Source of the DNA: a virus
Reading direction: 5' to 3' (one strand)
IMG/VR virus record: IMGVR_UViG_3300044691_000363
Coordinates: 1 to 40,180 of that record
Length of the DNA stretch: 40,180 nucleotides
The notes under the pieces are model-generated. The model made no database searches. It saw only the letters and a program-made list of their open reading frames with translations, and had not been told where the DNA came from. Below are positions 13,437 to 32,306 of this stretch, in pieces. Numbering within the stretch: position 1 is the stretch's first letter; every line of letters begins with the position of its first letter. A program made the position numbers and the translations under genes.

Positions 13437-13772
13437 TCATGCGGCGGTCGCCAACTGCGGCCAGCGGTGGGTGACGTAGTGGCTGGTTTTCATGAAATTG
13501 TAGCCGTGAGGATGAGCGGTGCGGTGGCGCTCGATCATCAGCGTCTCGAATGCGGCCGCGTCGTCCGCGCCTTCCACAACCGCAAGCGTTGTCACCTTGA
13601 ATGCGGCTTTGCCGAACCGGCCAATGGCGTCAGCCAGGAGCGCCCGGCGATGACCCGGCCACTCGCGATGGTCGGCCTGATGGCTGCGCCAGCGCTCTGC
13701 CGCAGTCTTGGAGGTGCAGCCGATGTAGCTTCTGCCCTCGGGGCAAGTGATCTTGTAGATGGTGAAGCTCAC
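13437..13772 (-). CDS. GIY-YIG nuclease
   Basis: A 111-residue single-domain GIY-YIG protein. The motif appears as TIYKI (4-8) and SYIG (15-18), followed by the catalytic-region Arg in AAERWRSH, a Glu in AAFETLMIE, and the closing HPHGYN. Such domains nick DNA and in phages are often homing endonucleases or repair-like nucleases. It is coupled to the Cro-like gene by an ATGA overlap, so it is expressed from the leftward switch promoter. Confidence 0.85.
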   Translation of the reverse strand: MSFTIYKITCPEGRSYIGCTSKTAAERWRSHQADHREWPGHRRALLADAIGRFGKAAFKVTTLAVVEGADDAAAFETLMIERHRTAHPHGYNFMKTSHYVTHRWPQLATAA

Positions 13773-13960
13773 GCCGCGGCGTCCTTTAGGAAGGTCGAAA
13801 TCGGCAGCAGCGTGCGGTCAGCCAAGCGGGCGGCGACCGTCAGAGACGGCTGGCGTTCACCCTTGCGGATGCGGGTGATGTACGGGCGCGAGACCCGGAC
13901 TTGCTCGGCGAGCCAAGTGTCCGTTTTGTCTTCGCGGGTCATCCACTCTTCTAGGGTCAT
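13769..13960 (-). CDS. Cro-like HTH protein
   Basis: A 63-residue XRE-type helix-turn-helix protein. T-W-L-A-E-Q-V-R-V-S-R-P-Y-I-T-R-I-R-K-G-E-R gives the two helices with an A-E-Q-x-x-V-S turn. The gene is divergent from the repressor at 14056, as cro is from cI. A CATAAT box (leftward) sits only 5 bases before the ATG, so the transcript may be leaderless. The operator at 13971-13985 lies in the same promoter. Confidence 0.8.
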   Translation of the reverse strand: MTLEEWMTREDKTDTWLAEQVRVSRPYITRIRKGERQPSLTVAARLADRTLLPISTFLKDAAA

Positions 13961-13970
13961 GGCGTATTAT

Positions 13971-13985
13971 GTGCCATAAGGGCAC
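13971..13985. promoter_or_regulatory. Repressor operator O1
   Basis: A 15-bp dyad, GTGCC-ATAAG-GGCAC, directly upstream of the leftward CATAAT box of the Cro-like gene. Read on the minus strand its core is CTTAT, matching the centre of the operators at 14612 and 14647. A half-site GTGCC is also at 14005. Binding here would shut off the leftward switch promoter. Confidence 0.7.
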
Positions 13986-14055
13986 GACGATAGCAAGCGG
14001 CGTTGTGCCCCATGTGATCTACCTCGTGGGGCGACGCGGTGTGACTATGTGGCCC

Positions 14056-14361
14056 ATGGCAAAGAGCCACTTCATCCGCGAATGGCGAAAGCATCGGGAC
14101 CTGTCGCAAGACCAGCTCGCCGAGCGCATCGGGATGAGTCGCGCCTACCTCTCCAAGATCGAGAGCGGGAAGCGCCGGTACGACCAGCCGTTCCTAGAGG
14201 CCGCCGCCGAGGTGCTGCGTTGCGAGCCTGCCGACCTGATCATCCGCGACCCGAGCGACCCGGAAGGCATCTGGTCGATCTGGGATAGCCTGCGGCCCGT
14301 CGAGCGCGCCCAGGTGGTCGAGATCGCTAAGACCCTGAAGCGCACGGGCACCGAGGGCTAG
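14056..14361 (+). CDS. CI/C2-type phage repressor
   Basis: A 101-residue XRE-family protein: EWRKHRDLSQDQLAERIGMS then R-A-Y-L-S-K-I-E-S-G-K-R is a textbook helix-turn-helix, and LRPVERAQVVEIAKTLKR in the C-terminal part may dimerise. There is no LexA-like Ser/Lys peptidase domain, so induction would not be by RecA-driven self-cleavage. The ATG at 14056 is chosen over upstream starts since homology begins there. It is divergent from the Cro-like gene and flanked by matching operators, so it is the likely lysogeny repressor. Confidence 0.8.
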   Translation: MAKSHFIREWRKHRDLSQDQLAERIGMSRAYLSKIESGKRRYDQPFLEAAAEVLRCEPADLIIRDPSDPEGIWSIWDSLRPVERAQVVEIAKTLKRTGTEG

Positions 14362-22340: not shown

Positions 22341-22534
22341 CTCGCCGCGCCACCTTCCGCGAGGCCGACCTTAACCGCGCCGTCAAGGTTGCGGAGAAGC
22401 ACGGCTGGAAGGTGGAAATCGAGGGAACCAAGATCACCCTCTTGCCAATCGACCCCGACGCGCGCCTACCCTCGCCCGATCTGACCGACTCTGATTTCGA
22501 GGCGAGGCTCGCGCAATGGTCACGTTCCGCATGA
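22337..22534 (+). CDS. 65-residue hypothetical protein before integrase
   Basis: M-T-R-R-A-T-F-R-E-A-D-L-N-R-A-V onward. AVKVAEKHGWKVEIEGTKIT followed by I-T-L-L-P resembles a small alpha/beta fold commonly encoded just before phage integrases. It ends in ATGA with the integrase. It may influence integration direction, but no excisionase HTH is visible. Confidence 0.6.
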   Translation: MTRRATFREADLNRAVKVAEKHGWKVEIEGTKITLLPIDPDARLPSPDLTDSDFEARLAQWSRSA

Positions 22535-23559
22535 GGTACGTCCAGGCCTACGCGGATCGCCACGGACGCCAGCGCTACTACTATCGGCGACCGGGCTTTC
22601 CGAGGGTGGCGCTGACCGGGGAGCCCGGCTCCGAGGAATTCGCAAAGGCCTATGATGTGGCTCGCACCAGCGCACCGCGCCGGATCGGTGAGGATCGCGT
22701 GGCGGCCGGGACGTTCTCCTGGCTGATCGTCGCCTACTACGACAGCGCGGCCTACGGAAAGCTCAAGCCGATCACCAAGCGGACCTATCGCAACGTGCTT
22801 GAGCGGTTCCGCCAGACGTTCGGCGACGACGCCGTGAAGTCGATGACACCGAAGCGGCTGGACGCGCTACTGGAGGCCACACCGAAGAACCTCAAGACCG
22901 TCCGCCAAGTGCTGCGACTGATCCTGAAGCTGGCGGTTCGCCGGGAACTGATCACGGTCAACCCCATGGATGGCCTGCGGCTCGCCAGGACGGCCGGCGC
23001 GGGGTTCAGAGCATGGACTGAGGACGACATAGCCGCCTACTGCGCCCACTGGCCCACGGGCTCTCGAGAGCGCCTCGCACTGGCGCTGCTGCTGTACACG
23101 GCCCAGCGCCGGGCTGATGTGGTTCCAATGGGCCGCCAGCACGTCAGGGCAGGAAAGATCCGGGTGGTGCAGAGCAAGACCGGAACGCCGCTATGGATTC
23201 CGCTGCATCCTGAGTTGGCCGCCGAGATCGAGGCGGCGCCCAAGGATCAGCTCACCTTCCTGCAGACGCAATACGGAAAGCCGTTCTCGCCGGCCGGGTT
23301 CGGCAACTGGTTTGGGGAGCGCGCGGAGAAGGCCGGATGCCCTGACGGCTGCACGGCGCACGGCCTGCGCAAGGCCGGATCGCGGCGCCTGGCCGAAGCC
23401 GGGTGTACGCCGCACCAGATCATGGCCATCACCGGCCACAAGAACCTATCGGAAGTGACGCTCTACACGGCGTCTGCGGATCAGGAACGACTTGCTGATC
23501 AGGCCATAGAGCGAACAAAAACGTCTAACCCCGCAAGACCGGTTAGACAAAATGGCTGA
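22531..23559 (+). CDS. int: Tyrosine integrase
   Basis: A 342-residue phage integrase. An N-terminal arm-binding region (R-Y-V-Q-A-Y-A-D, Y-Y-Y-R-R) precedes a SAM-like core-binding domain (about 75-145). The catalytic domain carries the full set: Arg193 (YTAQRRADV), Lys216 (Q-S-K-T-G-T), His277-x-x-Arg280 (A-H-G-L-R-K), His303 (I-T-G-H-K-N) and Tyr312 (V-T-L-Y-T). It would recombine attP with a host attB. I start at 22531 for the ATGA overlap; 22516 is five codons upstream. It is the last gene of the rightward operon, directly before the repeat-rich region. Confidence 0.92.
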   Translation: MRYVQAYADRHGRQRYYYRRPGFPRVALTGEPGSEEFAKAYDVARTSAPRRIGEDRVAAGTFSWLIVAYYDSAAYGKLKPITKRTYRNVLERFRQTFGDDAVKSMTPKRLDALLEATPKNLKTVRQVLRLILKLAVRRELITVNPMDGLRLARTAGAGFRAWTEDDIAAYCAHWPTGSRERLALALLLYTAQRRADVVPMGRQHVRAGKIRVVQSKTGTPLWIPLHPELAAEIEAAPKDQLTFLQTQYGKPFSPAGFGNWFGERAEKAGCPDGCTAHGLRKAGSRRLAEAGCTPHQIMAITGHKNLSEVTLYTASADQERLADQAIERTKTSNPARPVRQNG

Positions 23560-25279: not shown

Positions 25280-25370
25280 CTAGCAGTTCTGGCCGCGAAG
25301 CGGACTGATTCTCAGAACGCCGTGAAGCCCGCTAGATGAACCCCTAATCCACCCTCGCCGTTGAATCGGC

Positions 25371-25580
25371 ATGCCCCCTCCCCGCTATCAGGTCTTCGCC
25401 ATCCTCCATGATGGACGGATCTGGCATGGCGACTGCGCCATGGTGGACAAGGGGATGATCTGCGTGAGGAGCGCCTATGGAGGCGAGACGGGCGCAGTAG
25501 GGCGGCGAAGGCCTGAGCGGGTTGCGGTGGAGGTGTTGGAGCGGCTTGTGGTGGATTGGCGGCGCAAGCAGCGGTCTTAG
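25371..25580 (+). CDS. 69-residue hypothetical protein
   Basis: YQVFAILHDGRIWHGDCAMV is a beta hairpin and LERLVVDWRRKQRS a basic tail. The stretch before it (25280-25370) holds small dyads GTTCTG/CAGAAC and CCGC-GAA-GCGG and a TTGAATC motif, but no gene. It converges with 25577-25750 by a 4-base overlap. Confidence 0.55.
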   Translation: MPPPRYQVFAILHDGRIWHGDCAMVDKGMICVRSAYGGETGAVGRRRPERVAVEVLERLVVDWRRKQRS

Positions 25581-25750
25581 CCCTTCTGGCGTTCTCGGCG
25601 CTTGAGTTCTCGGTCTAGGGCTTGGCGGAGAAGATCGGCTTGAGCGCCCTTTGGCGGTTTCTCGCCTAGCAACTTCGCCAGCCGCGCCCGCGTCCCGAGC
25701 GGATAGCGCCCGAGGATTTCCTCCAGCTCCTGATTCTTTGGCCCCGGCAT
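25577..25750 (-). CDS. 57-residue leftward helical protein
   Basis: M-P-G-P-K-N-Q-E-L-E-E-I-L-G-R-Y onward; K-L-L-G-E-K-P-P-K-G-A-Q and a charged terminal helix LRQALDRELKRRERQ. It is the only leftward gene in this rightward region and has the triple CGATATCG element upstream, so it may be a small regulator acting there. I use the ATG at 25750; a TTG at 25798 would lengthen it through two of the bases in the first repeat. Confidence 0.5.
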   Translation of the reverse strand: MPGPKNQELEEILGRYPLGTRARLAKLLGEKPPKGAQADLLRQALDRELKRRERQKG

Positions 25751-25765
25751 CTGCGCCGTTGTGGG

Positions 25766-25866
25766 CGATATCGCGGTTGCGGTCAAAGACTGGCTCAAAA
25801 TCGGTTATCCTCGATATCGTGGATTGACCATGCCACAGATCGGCGTATGGTTCAACTTCGATATCG
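25766..25866. promoter_or_regulatory. Three regularly spaced CGATATCG sites
   Basis: The 8-bp palindrome CGATATCG occurs at 25766-25773, 25812-25819 and 25859-25866, 46 and 47 bp apart. Each is followed by a related (C/T)GRTTG-like stretch (CGGTTG, TGGATTG, CGATTG). They span the divergent gap between 25577-25750 and 25882-26070. The equal spacing, over four helical turns, suggests a cooperative operator or looping site. Confidence 0.6.
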
Positions 25867-25881
25867 CGATTGGAGCCAAAG

Positions 25882-26070
25882 ATGTACCCGTCAACCGCCC
25901 CGGCCATCGGCCAAACCGCCGTCGTCTACCAAGGCGACCGCGAACGCTTCGTCGGAAAAATCATCGCGAAGGGCGAGCGCCAGTGGGCGCGCCACTGGCA
26001 GGTGCAGAGCCGCCGGGGCCTGCGCGAGTGGGTCTCCGAAGATCAGATCGCCTGCGTGACGGCCCGATGA
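25882..26070 (+). CDS. 62-residue hypothetical protein
   Basis: M-Y-P-S-T-A-P-A-I-G-Q-T-A-V-V-Y onward, with RHWQVQSRRGLREWVSEDQI, an SH3-like beta pattern. GGAG lies 6 bases before the ATG at 25882. It is the first gene of the next rightward run and its promoter overlaps the third CGATATCG site. Confidence 0.55.
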   Translation: MYPSTAPAIGQTAVVYQGDRERFVGKIIAKGERQWARHWQVQSRRGLREWVSEDQIACVTAR

Positions 26071-26237
26071 AGGCCGAGCGCTACTACGCCGTGGAGCGCG
26101 AGCTTCGCTACCTGCGCGATGCGGTGTGCGACATGCTCGCGGCGAACCCGAAGCTGCCGCTGCACATCACCGAGCCTCTAGGTCGCCGCCTGATCGACGC
26201 GACGACCGCGCTCAGCCTGCCGGAGGATTTGAAATGA
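26067..26237 (+). CDS. 56-residue hypothetical protein
   Basis: M-K-A-E-R-Y-Y-A-V-E-R-E-L-R-Y-L-R onward; two amphipathic helices, the second with P-L-G-R-R-L-I-D-A-T. ATGA overlaps at both ends. The function is unknown. Confidence 0.55.
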   Translation: MKAERYYAVERELRYLRDAVCDMLAANPKLPLHITEPLGRRLIDATTALSLPEDLK

Positions 26238-26374
26238 GTGCCTTTGAAGAAGGTCGCGCCGCCTACGAGCGCGGCGGACCCCTTCCGGCGCGCAACCCCT
26301 ACGGCGCGGATGAGCAGTGCAGCCGATTCGATTGGCGGAAGGGTTTCTTCGCGGCGCTTCGTGGTGACCTATGA
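26234..26374 (+). CDS. Small RMF-like-motif protein
   Basis: A 46-residue protein: F-E-E-G-R-A-A-Y-E-R-G-G-P then N-P-Y-G, followed by R-F-D-W-R-K-G-F-F-A-A-L. The G-R-x-A-x-x-x-G...N-P-Y...W-x-x-G-F pattern resembles ribosome modulation factor and many short phage proteins. A ribosome-binding role is possible only by this resemblance. Confidence 0.55.
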   Translation: MSAFEEGRAAYERGGPLPARNPYGADEQCSRFDWRKGFFAALRGDL

Positions 26375-26733
26375 ACAAGGAAATCCGCTCCCGCCTCATG
26401 GCTTGGGTCGCGCTCATAGAGCGTACCGCCGCCGATGGGGACAACCGCCTGATGGTGGACGCCGATGTCGCGGCTGAACATGCGCGCGACTTGCGCGCTC
26501 TGCTGTGCGGTACGCCGATCCGCCCAGGCGACACCGTCGAGTGTGTCGACGCATGGGACACCTTCAATGCCCTGACGGTGGGCAAGCTCTACGACATTCT
26601 GGACGCCCGCGACGGCATGGTCTTCGTCAAGGGTAACGCGGGCCATATCGGCGGCTGGTGGCCCTCTCACTTCAAGCATGTGGAAGCGCCCGCAACTCCC
26701 CCGCCCGGATTTGAGCAATGGGGCCGCACATGA
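26371..26733 (+). CDS. Hypothetical beta-barrel-like protein
   Basis: A 120-residue protein. After an N-terminal helix it has IRPGDTVECVDAWDTFNALT then Y-D-I-L-D-A-R-D-G-M-V-F-V-K-G, and I-G-G-W-W-P-S-H-F, resembling small phage beta-barrel proteins (KOW/SH3-like). ATGA overlaps at both ends. Confidence 0.55.
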   Translation: MNKEIRSRLMAWVALIERTAADGDNRLMVDADVAAEHARDLRALLCGTPIRPGDTVECVDAWDTFNALTVGKLYDILDARDGMVFVKGNAGHIGGWWPSHFKHVEAPATPPPGFEQWGRT

Positions 26734-26861
26734 CCACCTACTTCCTCACCGCCCTACGTGAAGATGGGGGGAGAAGGGATATGGTATCCGTTGCCGAGAG
26801 CGGCGGTAGTCCGCCTGCGGCCAAATCCGACAATCACAACCATTCTGAAGGAGGCCGCTGA
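26730..26861 (+). CDS. 43-residue hypothetical protein
   Basis: M-T-T-Y-F-L-T-A-L-R-E-D-G-G onward; the tail is polar and probably disordered. Coupled ATGA before and TGATG after. The function is unknown. Confidence 0.45.
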   Translation: MTTYFLTALREDGGRRDMVSVAESGGSPPAAKSDNHNHSEGGR

Positions 26862-27355
26862 TGTCGGCTGAGCGGGTGGTAGCCCATGTGCTGATCGAGC
26901 CGGAAGATCTGCAGGAGCTTGTCCGGCACGCCTACCTAGCTGGCTGCCGAGACGTGCACGAGAACTATCAGGAGGATGCCGATCCTGACTTTACCGAGGC
27001 GAGTTACGACTATGTGGCGAGCCTCGACTTCACAGAAACCACGAAGCCTTATAGGGGTGCGCGCGACACTTGGCGACCGATCGAGAGCGCGCCGAGGGAT
27101 GGGACGGAAATCATTCTTCGGCGAGATCAGCGTATCGGCGGCGGGTTTTGGATCACATGGCCTGACACCGAAACCTGTGAAGGTGGCGAGGGATGGAGCG
27201 TCGGAGCCGACGGCTGCCACTGGGATGACGCTGCTGCCCCTACCCACTGGCAACCCCTCCCCACTCCGCCCCTCCGCGCCGAGCTGCTGGCCGATGCGAA
27301 CTCCCACTACAGTGAAGCCCAGCTTGAAGAGATAGCCGCCGGTGACCGCTCATGA
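26861..27355 (+). CDS. DUF551-like protein
   Basis: A 164-residue protein. The C-terminal half has W-R-P-I-E-S-A-P-R-D-G-T-E-I-I-L, then G-G-G-F-W-I-T-W, then T-H-W-Q-P-L-P, the DUF551 pattern seen in many phage and prophage proteins of unknown role. The N-terminal 60 residues are acidic and helical and resemble other small phage proteins. GAAGGAGG precedes the start. Confidence 0.7.
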   Translation: MSAERVVAHVLIEPEDLQELVRHAYLAGCRDVHENYQEDADPDFTEASYDYVASLDFTETTKPYRGARDTWRPIESAPRDGTEIILRRDQRIGGGFWITWPDTETCEGGEGWSVGADGCHWDDAAAPTHWQPLPTPPLRAELLADANSHYSEAQLEEIAAGDRS

Positions 27356-27486
27356 CCGTCAAGCCGATCTTCGCTTGGTACGACATGTGGGTCGGCGCGT
27401 TCTGGGACAGCGCCAAGCGCCGCCTCTACGTCTTCCCGGTGCCGATGCTGGGCGTCGTGATCCAGTTTCCGGCGGCTCGGCGATGA
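27352..27486 (+). CDS. 44-residue hydrophobic protein
   Basis: M-T-V-K-P-I-F-A-W-Y-D-M-W-V-G-A-F-W onward, aromatic-rich, with L-Y-V-F-P-V-P-M-L-G-V-V-I; possibly membrane-associated rather than a clean transmembrane helix. ATGA overlaps on both sides. The function is unknown. Confidence 0.5.
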   Translation: MTVKPIFAWYDMWVGAFWDSAKRRLYVFPVPMLGVVIQFPAARR

Positions 27487-27758
27487 GGATCACATACACT
27501 GGCCCCACCGCCTGCTTCGACGCCGCCATGCTCATCGTGTCGCGGGAGATGGTCTATTGGGAAGCTAGGTACACCAAGGTCGGGTGGGGCTGGCAATTCA
27601 ATGGCCGATATCATCCAGACGGAGAGTTCTTCGTCCGCAGACTGAAGGACGGCTTGTCGGTGAAATGCACCCGAGATCCAGCGGAGACCAGCGCCAGCAG
27701 TCCGAGCGCTGAAGGCGCGGGTGCTGGCAAGGATGCGCGTGATGACCCCGAAACCTGA
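27483..27758 (+). CDS. Hypothetical protein
   Basis: A 91-residue protein. EMVYWEARYTKVGWGWQFNG is a beta segment rich in aromatics and Y-H-P-D-G-E-F-F-V-R-R follows; the last 30 residues are low complexity. ATGA coupling to the gene before. The family is not recognised. Confidence 0.55.
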   Translation: MRITYTGPTACFDAAMLIVSREMVYWEARYTKVGWGWQFNGRYHPDGEFFVRRLKDGLSVKCTRDPAETSASSPSAEGAGAGKDARDDPET

Positions 27759-27788
27759 ATCCGACCGGCTGAACAAAAGGGAACGGCC

Positions 27789-27983
27789 ATGAGCAGGAAG
27801 CATGACCCAAGATATCTGGAGCGCGCTCGCAACCAGTCGCTTAGCTGGGCGCAAGGTCGTCCATATCACGAGCCGATCAATGACGAGTGTTGCCCTGACT
27901 TCTCGTGCTGCTGCCCCGACCTTTTCACGAAGGACGAGGCCGAACGCTGGCAGACCCACGCGGCAACATACGGAGCGCACTAG
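27789..27983 (+). CDS. 64-residue Cys-rich protein
   Basis: M-S-R-K-H-D-P-R-Y-L-E-R-A-R-N onward. The E-C-C-P-D-F-S-C-C-C-P-D-L-F segment places five Cys in 11 residues, which could bind a metal or form disulfides. The start has a weak AAGGGAACGG ribosome site. The function is unknown. Confidence 0.55.
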   Translation: MSRKHDPRYLERARNQSLSWAQGRPYHEPINDECCPDFSCCCPDLFTKDEAERWQTHAATYGAH

Positions 27984-27986
27984 GCT

Positions 27987-28196
27987 ATGGCCCACCTACC
28001 CGACAAGCCCATGAAGGAAGAGCCGCACGTCACCCGCTCCGTCCGCTACTGGGTCTACAGCCCGTTTGGCGATCCGATCCTGTGCGTTCCCGACTATGCC
28101 GAGGCCCTGGCCTACGCGCGGGAAGTTCCCCGCCGGACGATGGAACTGATCGTGGTCGCGGCGACCCGCACACCCATCGAGGTTCGGCCAGCATGA
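27987..28196 (+). CDS. 69-residue hypothetical protein
   Basis: M-A-H-L-P-D-K-P-M-K-E-E-P-H-V-T onward, then RYWVYSPFGDPILCVPDYAE and a short helix. It ends in an ATGA overlap with the DUF736-like gene. No recognised family. Confidence 0.5.
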   Translation: MAHLPDKPMKEEPHVTRSVRYWVYSPFGDPILCVPDYAEALAYAREVPRRTMELIVVAATRTPIEVRPA

Positions 28197-28402
28197 CCTT
28201 CACCGCCAAGCCCGGCAACGGAGCGCTGTTCAAGAACGAGCGCAAGGTCAAGGATCACCAGCCCGACTATCGCGGCTCGCTCACCCTCCCCGACGGCACG
28301 ACCATGCAACTCGGCGGCTGGATCAGCCAGGGCGCGAACGGGAAGTACCTGTCGCTGAAGGTCAGCGCGTTCCTGCCGGCCGTGGGCGATCCTGAGGCCT
28401 AA
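28193..28402 (+). CDS. DUF736-like small protein
   Basis: A 69-residue protein: G-N-G-A-L-F-K-N-E-R-K, then D-Y-R-G-S-L-T-L, then W-I-S-Q-G-A-N-G-K-Y-L-S-L-K. This matches the DUF736-type pattern (N-G-x-L-F-K-N, P-D-Y-x-G, G-K-F-x-S-L), an OB-like fold common on plasmids and phages of alphaproteobacteria. It may bind single-stranded DNA, which is inference. Confidence 0.65.
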   Translation: MTFTAKPGNGALFKNERKVKDHQPDYRGSLTLPDGTTMQLGGWISQGANGKYLSLKVSAFLPAVGDPEA

Positions 28403-28705: not shown

Positions 28706-29302
28706 TTAGGAGCCGAATCCTTTCGCGCCGAAGCCGCGCACGGCCGACCAGATCGTGACCCGCTTCCATGTCGGCACGCCGAGCGCGACCATGGCTTCGC
28801 GCAGGATTTCGTCGCACTCGGCCCGAGTGTACGGCACCGCCCGCGTCCGCCCGACGTGGCCGTACCAAAGGAAGGTCCCCTTGGTCCGATAGCAGTTGTC
28901 ATGGGGGATCGAGGCCTCGGCCCAAGGGCCGTCCGGCGGCATGATCCCCCACACGACCTGGGGGATTGAAGCGAGGTCCGTCCTTGACCCGGCGAACATG
29001 CCGACCAGATCACCGGCGTCGGTTCGAAAGCCGATGGTGTTCCGCAGGGCGTAATACTGGTGGCCGTTGCGGAGGACCGGCCTCTGTCCCCTGTTGAACA
29101 GCGGGACCAGTTCGAACTTGCCGGCGAAGCGGTGCGGCGCGATCGGCAGCGGAATCGTCATCCGCACCGCGGCGCCGGACAGCTTGCACGGTCCCGCTGT
29201 ACAGGGGTCGCCAAGCGGCCCGGGGCCGGGCTGGGCGGCAACGGGCCCGGAAACCGCCGCCATGGCGCAGGCGAGCGCCAGGACGGCGTGAAGGAGCCTC
29301 AC
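28706..29302 (-). CDS. Secreted DUF1353 protein
   Basis: A 198-residue protein. The GTG at 29302 gives a signal peptide (R-L-L-H-A-V-L-A-L-A-C-A-M-A-A, then A-A-Q). The core G-S-R-T-D-L-A-S-I-P-Q-V-V-W then S-I-P-H-D-N-C-Y-R is the DUF1353 signature (D-x-A-S-x-P...H-D-x-x-Y). DUF1353 genes are common at the end of phage lysis or tail regions with no known enzyme activity; an exported form suggests an envelope role. It is the last gene of the late operon before the terminator. Confidence 0.75.
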   Translation of the reverse strand: MRLLHAVLALACAMAAVSGPVAAQPGPGPLGDPCTAGPCKLSGAAVRMTIPLPIAPHRFAGKFELVPLFNRGQRPVLRNGHQYYALRNTIGFRTDAGDLVGMFAGSRTDLASIPQVVWGIMPPDGPWAEASIPHDNCYRTKGTFLWYGHVGRTRAVPYTRAECDEILREAMVALGVPTWKRVTIWSAVRGFGAKGFGS

Positions 29303-31325: not shown

Positions 31326-32306
31326 TTATGCGTACCCTTCGGCGGCGTAGAGGCCAAAGGATCGCCTGCCGTGAGGCTGTCGGTAAGTCAGACGCTTGCC
31401 AACGGCGCCAGCCACCAGACGGGCCGCGCGGGTCGCGTCGTCCACGCCAACGGCGATCCGGTTCGAGTACCTGAAATCGAACTCGGCGATGTAGCGGTGC
31501 ACGTGCCGCGAGGCACAGTGTTGGTAGACGCCTTTCATCCCGCGCTTGAAGATCGAATAGAACCCTTCGACCGTGTTCGTGTGGATGCGGCCATCGGATT
31601 GCGAGACGTACTCGCCCTTGCCGTGGTTCACGACGCCATGGGCTGAGAAGTTCCAGCCAAGCGACGTGTAGCGGGTCGCCTCGTCGCTCATCAGCCACGC
31701 CTCGCGGGCGATATTGGCTTCGATGATCGGCGTGATGGTGGACATGCGCAGGTCCTTCACCACGAAGCTGCGGGCCTCGCCGGTGGAACGGTCCACCAAG
31801 GAAAGCACCTTGTTCATGTTGTGGATGCCGAACTTCTCCTTCGGGCCCGGTGGCGTGAGAATGTCGCGACCGATGAACGTCTCATCGACTTCGACGGGCG
31901 TTCCGTCGCCACCCATCGGCGGAAGATCACCAGCGGGGCGCATTGCTTCACGGATGCGATGAGCCATGAACCAGGCGGTGCGGTACGAACCGAAGCCGAG
32001 CATCCGATACAGCTGATGGGCGCTGATGCCCTTCTTGCTGGAAGCCATCAGGTGCGAGGCCAGCAGCCATTTGTGCATCAGGATATGCGACCGCTCGTAG
32101 ACGGTCCCCATGGTCGCGGTGAAGGGCTTGCGGCAGGCGCGGCAGTTGTAGAGCCCGCGACGCGTCGTCTTGCCGGTCGAGCCCTCCGACTGGCCGACGA
32201 CACCGCAATGCGGGCAGGAGCGCCCGGTAGGCCAACGGATCGCTTCGAAGTGCGTCCAAGCGGCGTCTTCGTCGGTGAAAATCGGGTTCGTCAGGTCGGC
32301 GGTCAT
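31326..32306 (-). mobile_element. IS1595-type (ISXO2-like) transposase gene
   Basis: A 326-residue transposase. An N-terminal zinc ribbon (C-P-H-C at 31-34, C-R-A-C at 55-58) is followed by HTH-like KKGISAHQLYRMLGFG and a DDE/N core: Asp141 (V-E-V-D-E-T-F-I-G), Asp208 (L-M-S-D-E-A) and Glu247 in H-T-N-T-V-E-G-F-Y. The frame is full length and seems intact. I could find no matching terminal inverted repeats or target duplication around it, so the element's ends are undefined; it may be a stranded or domesticated copy. Confidence 0.85.

Follow-up and report, generated by a model that had tools for sequence, protein, structure and literature searches.

The Arc and Mnt proteins of phage P22 are short RHH autoregulators, which act on palindromic operators at divergent promoters. 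The locus described here is similar, in combining a proposed short phage autoregulator of the RHH type with palindromic operators in a divergent promoter. However, its protein has no direct homology to Arc or Mnt, two members of the wider family having weak matches to PHROG families of Arc-like repressors. Furthermore, the operators comprise two to four separate palindromes, one of which lies in the spacer of the putative repressor's promoter, at a distance of 15 nt from a start that is probably leaderless, and the presumed target is an accessory operon.

Other described regulators share individual properties with this system. The solved CopG-family RHH regulators (7by2, 6iya and 2k5j) have only the fold in common with it, as far as tested, by the family profile. 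The NCBIfam YlcI/YnfO model (NF041551), named after E. coli prophage proteins, is matched by 22 of the 25 members of the family, one of those tested singly being above the cut-off, but not by the protein studied here, which had no match at E 1, nor by its near twin. The protein was not assigned to this NCBIfam family, and no function for YlcI/YnfO was found in the literature searched. The system also resembles the Aca regulators, in that a small phage protein is proposed to shut down an operon in which the genes are small and early, and some are anti-defence. Yet archaeal Aca8, a regulator of anti-CRISPR operons, is a predicted winged-HTH protein (PMC11065993), whereas the regulator here is RHH-like and divergent, and no anti-CRISPR (acr) gene was recognised.

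The device is of a known kind, represented by Arc, Mnt and CopG. What appears to be undescribed in the sources searched is the family, together with the fixed geometry of its arrays and the natural switching of specificity: a literature search, with most subscription papers outside its reach, returned no description of the family or the array, and the relative is annotated as a "hypothetical protein" in three described phages, StopSmel, Pam5 and DMCA.

A palindrome triplet in a divergent promoter

The window analysed is a complete IMG/VR record of 40,180 bases. It contains three exact copies of the palindrome CGATATCG, at 25766-25773, 25812-25819 and 25859-25866, with start-to-start spacings of 46 and 47 bp, reproducing the description in the first-pass annotation. 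An exact-match count over the entire record found these three copies and no others, where dinucleotide shuffles gave a mean expectation of 0.68, and the octamer is therefore not common elsewhere. Among 1000 Markov-simulated windows, none had three copies of CGATATCG inside 110 bp, and nine had three copies of any palindromic octamer within this distance. As a triplet of some octamer thus arises in about 1% of simulated windows, the window taken alone is suggestive, and the case for operators rests on the comparison with relatives. A coding origin of the repeat was rejected: in the plus-strand frame (DIAVAVKD and DIAIGAKD), every difference between copies alters an amino acid, and the sites lie within a conserved promoter.

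The palindromes, here numbered as putative operators 1 to 3, lie between genes whose coordinates had been correctly assigned, the minus-strand gene beginning with ATG at 25750 and the plus-strand gene with ATG at 25882, the latter preceded by a ribosome-binding site read as GGAG (25872-25875, plus strand). Operator 1 is 15 nt upstream of the leftward start codon, between a -35 element, TTGACC (25781-25786, minus strand), and a -10-like element, CACAAC (25758-25763, minus strand); the latter, read from the sequence 7 nt before the ATG, is a weak match to the consensus, and is likewise placed in the related loci L037 and L041. The rightward promoter, TTGACC-N16-TATGGT (25824-25851, plus strand), was the sole sigma-70-like site found in 25300-26300, where 0.2 were expected. 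Operator 2 is 4 nt upstream of its -35, and operator 3 is 7 nt past its -10, at the expected transcription start. Hence the order of elements on both strands places operator 1 in the leftward spacer, with operators 2 and 3 flanking the rightward promoter. There is no evident Shine-Dalgarno sequence before the leftward gene, and its start codon roughly coincides with the expected transcription start; a leaderless mRNA is therefore probable.

A GRTTG-like stretch had additionally been noted after each site. It is present in the window, yet does not belong consistently to the sites: the stretch that follows operator 2 is the -35 element TTGACC, and past operator 3, reading the other strand, L037 has a GGAGATAG-type sequence in its place. 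A conserved extension is consequently not supported.

Conservation of the array in relatives

No near-identical DNA was found in the phage collection, nor was the exact 46/47 spacing found in other viral contigs. When the gaps were relaxed to 10-40 nt, a search of viral contigs by DNA alone, blind to proteins, returned 32 loci with three copies of CGATATCG. In 14 of these, including the identical sequences L037 and L065, there was a divergent promoter in which an ATG or GTG exactly 15 nt past the last palindrome opened an RHH-like ORF of 54-74 aa. The other 18 were not of the RHH type, with many having multiple-of-three spacings in repetitive sequence (for example L039, L042, L047, L057 and L068).

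The near twin, L037, encodes a protein 70-72% identical to that of the window, and retains both promoters and all three sites. On the RHH side, TTGACCGCAACCG precedes the last site and CACAAC follows it; on the opposite side, TTGACC-N16-TAGAGT-N7-CGATATCG occupies the same positions as the rightward promoter and operator 3 of the window, including the 7 nt between them, and the equivalent of operator 2 is 3 nt upstream of TTGACC. The remainder of the 14 loci are mainly an MGRPP group, whose extra members, found through their proteins, also have a site at 15 nt.

A search with the 57-aa protein itself identified four viral relatives, one of which led to about twenty more. These are of about 50-70 aa, with a pattern of strand, helix, helix and basic end, and identities to the window protein outside the near twin are 38-49%. 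Nearly all have two to four palindrome-like words in the divergent promoter upstream, with the word differing between them, and at 15 nt the relatives found by protein alone (L071-L086 and StopSmel) carry either CGATATCG itself or a word differing from it by one mismatch. The exceptions are L083, which lacks a palindrome cluster, and L087, which has no copy at 15 nt. In the Mu-like phage StopSmel (L089, 876-1112), the annotated RHH start at 876 is upstream of the last operator; this start is probably wrong, with the true one near 912.

This anatomy is conserved in many phages. In an alignment of 25 loci, TTGAC at -36 to -32 relative to the RHH start was invariant, and a site was found at -23 to -16 in all 25, its sequence being nearly invariant as CGATATCG. 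The arrangement of the window recurs in 24 other compared loci, in each of which exactly 15 nt separate the last palindrome from the start of the putative repressor gene. Spacings between palindromes are more variable: taken towards the RHH gene, they are 46/35 bp in L037 and 47/46 bp in the window, giving differences of 1 bp and of 11 bp, or approximately one helical turn in the second case. Across relatives, sites 1 and 2 are separated by 35-36 or 42-47 bp, and sites 2 and 3 by 22-25, 32 or 46-47 bp. The two ranges between sites 1 and 2 are at most suggestive of helical phasing, the loci not being independent. The gene opposite differs from locus to locus, whereas the RHH gene and the array are constant; hence the array belongs to the RHH gene.

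A family of short RHH-like proteins

The gene at 25577-25750 (minus strand) is alone in being reversed within a run of rightward genes, and gene 25371-25580 is convergent on it. On sequence comparison, its product can be placed in an unannotated family of short RHH-like proteins in temperate phages, mostly of Alphaproteobacteria. The family profile, built from the window protein and 24 relatives, matches the CopG-type RHH structures 7by2 (E 2.9e-5) and 2k5j (E 0.0096), and its alignment to solved CopG-family RHH proteins covers the strand and both helices. One relative also matches Pfam RHH_1 at 0.0087, below the cut-off. Similarity to the RHH (MetJ/Arc/CopG) superfamily was thus detected with the family profile and not with the window protein alone, which had no confident match to any Pfam, NCBIfam or PHROG family. 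The AlphaFold2 model of its monomer (pLDDT 87) has an extended N-terminus and helices at residues 20-28 and 36-56; two helices without a strand would be expected of an RHH chain modelled alone, and fold searches with this monomer returned no structural match. An RHH fold is the predicted structure of the window protein.

Operator words change with the predicted contact strand

Strand residues were numbered by alignment with Arc, in which the contact residues are 9, 11 and 13. Proteins of the L11/R13 type are found with CGATATCG, those with MQARF (Q11/R13) with TCATATGA, and those having P11 (MPARF) or V11 with R13 (L003, L096, L123 and Caulobacter phage DMCA), with TGATATC[AT]. NLTL proteins (N11/T13) accompany a TGTACA-centred operator, ITLPL proteins (T11/P13) accompany CGTACATACG, and ILVTL proteins accompany a TATATA-type word. 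Finally, Pseudanabaena phage Pam5 (KVR), with K at position 11 where its relatives have L, has CGGGGACG. Pam5 is a member of the MGRPP group, and its operator core has changed from ATAT to GGGA, with the flanks of the group (AAGCG....CGCTT) and the 15-nt distance being kept.

Across these seven classes, the operator word changes together with the predicted DNA-contact strand, and this joint change indirectly suggests that the strand residues may contact the operator bases. A tree calculated without the strand nests Pam5 within the CGATATCG group but leaves the window pair outside, with the window pair and this group both using CGATATCG. On this tree the seven classes need seven changes, support being low because the proteins are short, and independent operator switches are few because the covariation classes largely coincide with clades.

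The divergent operons and their surroundings

The presumed target in the window is a rightward operon of about ten small genes (25882-28402, plus strand), which closes with an SSB-like protein (28193-28402, plus strand; phrog_18154, E 1.8e-10). DUF6501-like and DUF551-like matches within it were just below the cut-off, and its first gene (25882-26070), used as search bait, returned no relatives. The divergent operons of relatives similarly contain mostly small genes of unknown function, the recognisable ones being excisionase-like genes, DNA methylases, Tad2-like, Acb2/Tad1 and RyR. The Tad2-like gene (L041:6305-6589; PF11195, E 4.6e-22) and the Acb2/Tad1 gene (L012:1707-1952; PF24729, E 6.7e-15) are each in an operon divergent from the RHH gene, and the RyR-domain gene is in that of a third relative; proteins with this domain from phages reportedly overcome Thoeris defence (PMC13232231). 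These represent three candidate anti-defence proteins among 111 encoded by divergent operons, compared with one, an Acb2/Tad1, among 110 controls from the other side of the RHH gene. Such numbers are a lead, and too few to claim enrichment.

Elsewhere in the window, a tyrosine integrase (22516-23559, plus strand) has 41% identity to that of Pseudanabaena phage Pan3; Pam5, which is also related by its integrase, carries its RHH gene beside its own integrase. An ORF at 31326-32306 (minus strand) resembles, by eye, an ISXO2/IS1595-type transposase, and a DUF1353 protein (PF07087, E 6.4e-19; PHROG "tail assembly chaperone") is encoded at 28706-29161 (minus strand).

A model of regulation and its alternatives

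These comparisons point to an operator array that is probably bound by the product of 25577-25750, as the first-pass annotation had suggested. With a probability of about 0.87, the three palindromes are operators of this putative RHH protein, through which it would repress its own gene and silence the rightward operon. At each CGATATCG, the major groove would receive the two-stranded sheet of an RHH dimer. A dimer at operator 1 would occupy the spacer of the promoter that serves the repressor gene itself, flanked by the -35 and -10-like elements; at operator 2, it would abut the rightward -35; and at operator 3, it would cover the rightward start site. Owing to these positions, a filled array would shut both promoters. 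The repressor would thereby cap its own synthesis, and keep the rightward operon off until repressor became scarce, for instance just after infection or on induction, when the operon would be released.

The array had originally been interpreted as a multimeric operator or a looping element. The recurrence of the array, and the change of operator with strand, favour the operator, whereas the varying spacings in relatives do not favour looping. A looped repressing state, with dimers at sites 1 and 3 bridged over site 2, is very unlikely: these sites are 93 bp apart, which at about nine helical turns is near integral, and L037 differs by 11 bp in one spacing, but a loop of this length would be very short, and the overlap of the sites with promoters allows direct block. 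Moreover, side-by-side cooperative binding would serve spacings of 46-47 bp equally, and would suit the 22-25 bp between sites 2 and 3 in relatives, with the spacing values not being phylogenetically independent. The model does not need DNA looping. It is very unlikely that the sites are instead bound by a protein of the host or by another phage regulator, such as the CI-like HTH proteins encoded at 13769-14361, with the RHH-like gene as a passenger. Apparent HTH regulators can be seen by eye elsewhere in the window, and palindromes of the GATATC type could in principle suit many proteins; however, this would not be expected to leave the operator word tracking the RHH contact strand over seven classes, the site position fixed relative to the RHH start, and the record free of CGATATCG elsewhere.

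Antitoxins that act on palindromic operators are numerous among RHH proteins, raising the highly improbable alternative that this autoregulation is that of a toxin-antitoxin pair. A type II antitoxin shares an operon with its toxin gene, whereas in the window and relatives the RHH gene is alone, reversed and without a co-transcribed partner, being monocistronic between convergent and divergent neighbours, the latter varying from phage to phage. A chance cluster, at about 1% per window for a triplet of any palindromic octamer, or a set of arm-type integrase sites, given an integrase gene (22516-23559) only 2.2 kb away, is scarcely credible: both were refuted by the recurrence of the array next to the RHH genes of phages that are unrelated, the Mu-like StopSmel among them, and by the palindromic, promoter-linked nature of the sites.

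Implications of the proposed repressor family

Autoregulation by a divergent RHH repressor would make the repeat one half of a regulator-operator pair that can be tested, and provide a likely function for the hypothetical proteins of phages StopSmel, Pam5 and DMCA. The approximately seven natural classes of contact strand and operator constitute a data set for the RHH recognition code, and for orthogonal repressors. The array is also a DNA signature of phage operons in which nearly all of the small genes are uncharacterised. More tentatively, at somewhat less than even odds, a large unnamed family of leaderless RHH repressors in temperate phages may form a natural set of mutually orthogonal switches, in which few strand residues reset the operator word, and the promoter chassis (TTGAC, the spacer operator and the 15-nt distance) remains constant. 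The array would then mark operons of undescribed early, possibly counter-defence, genes, which searches for it could find.
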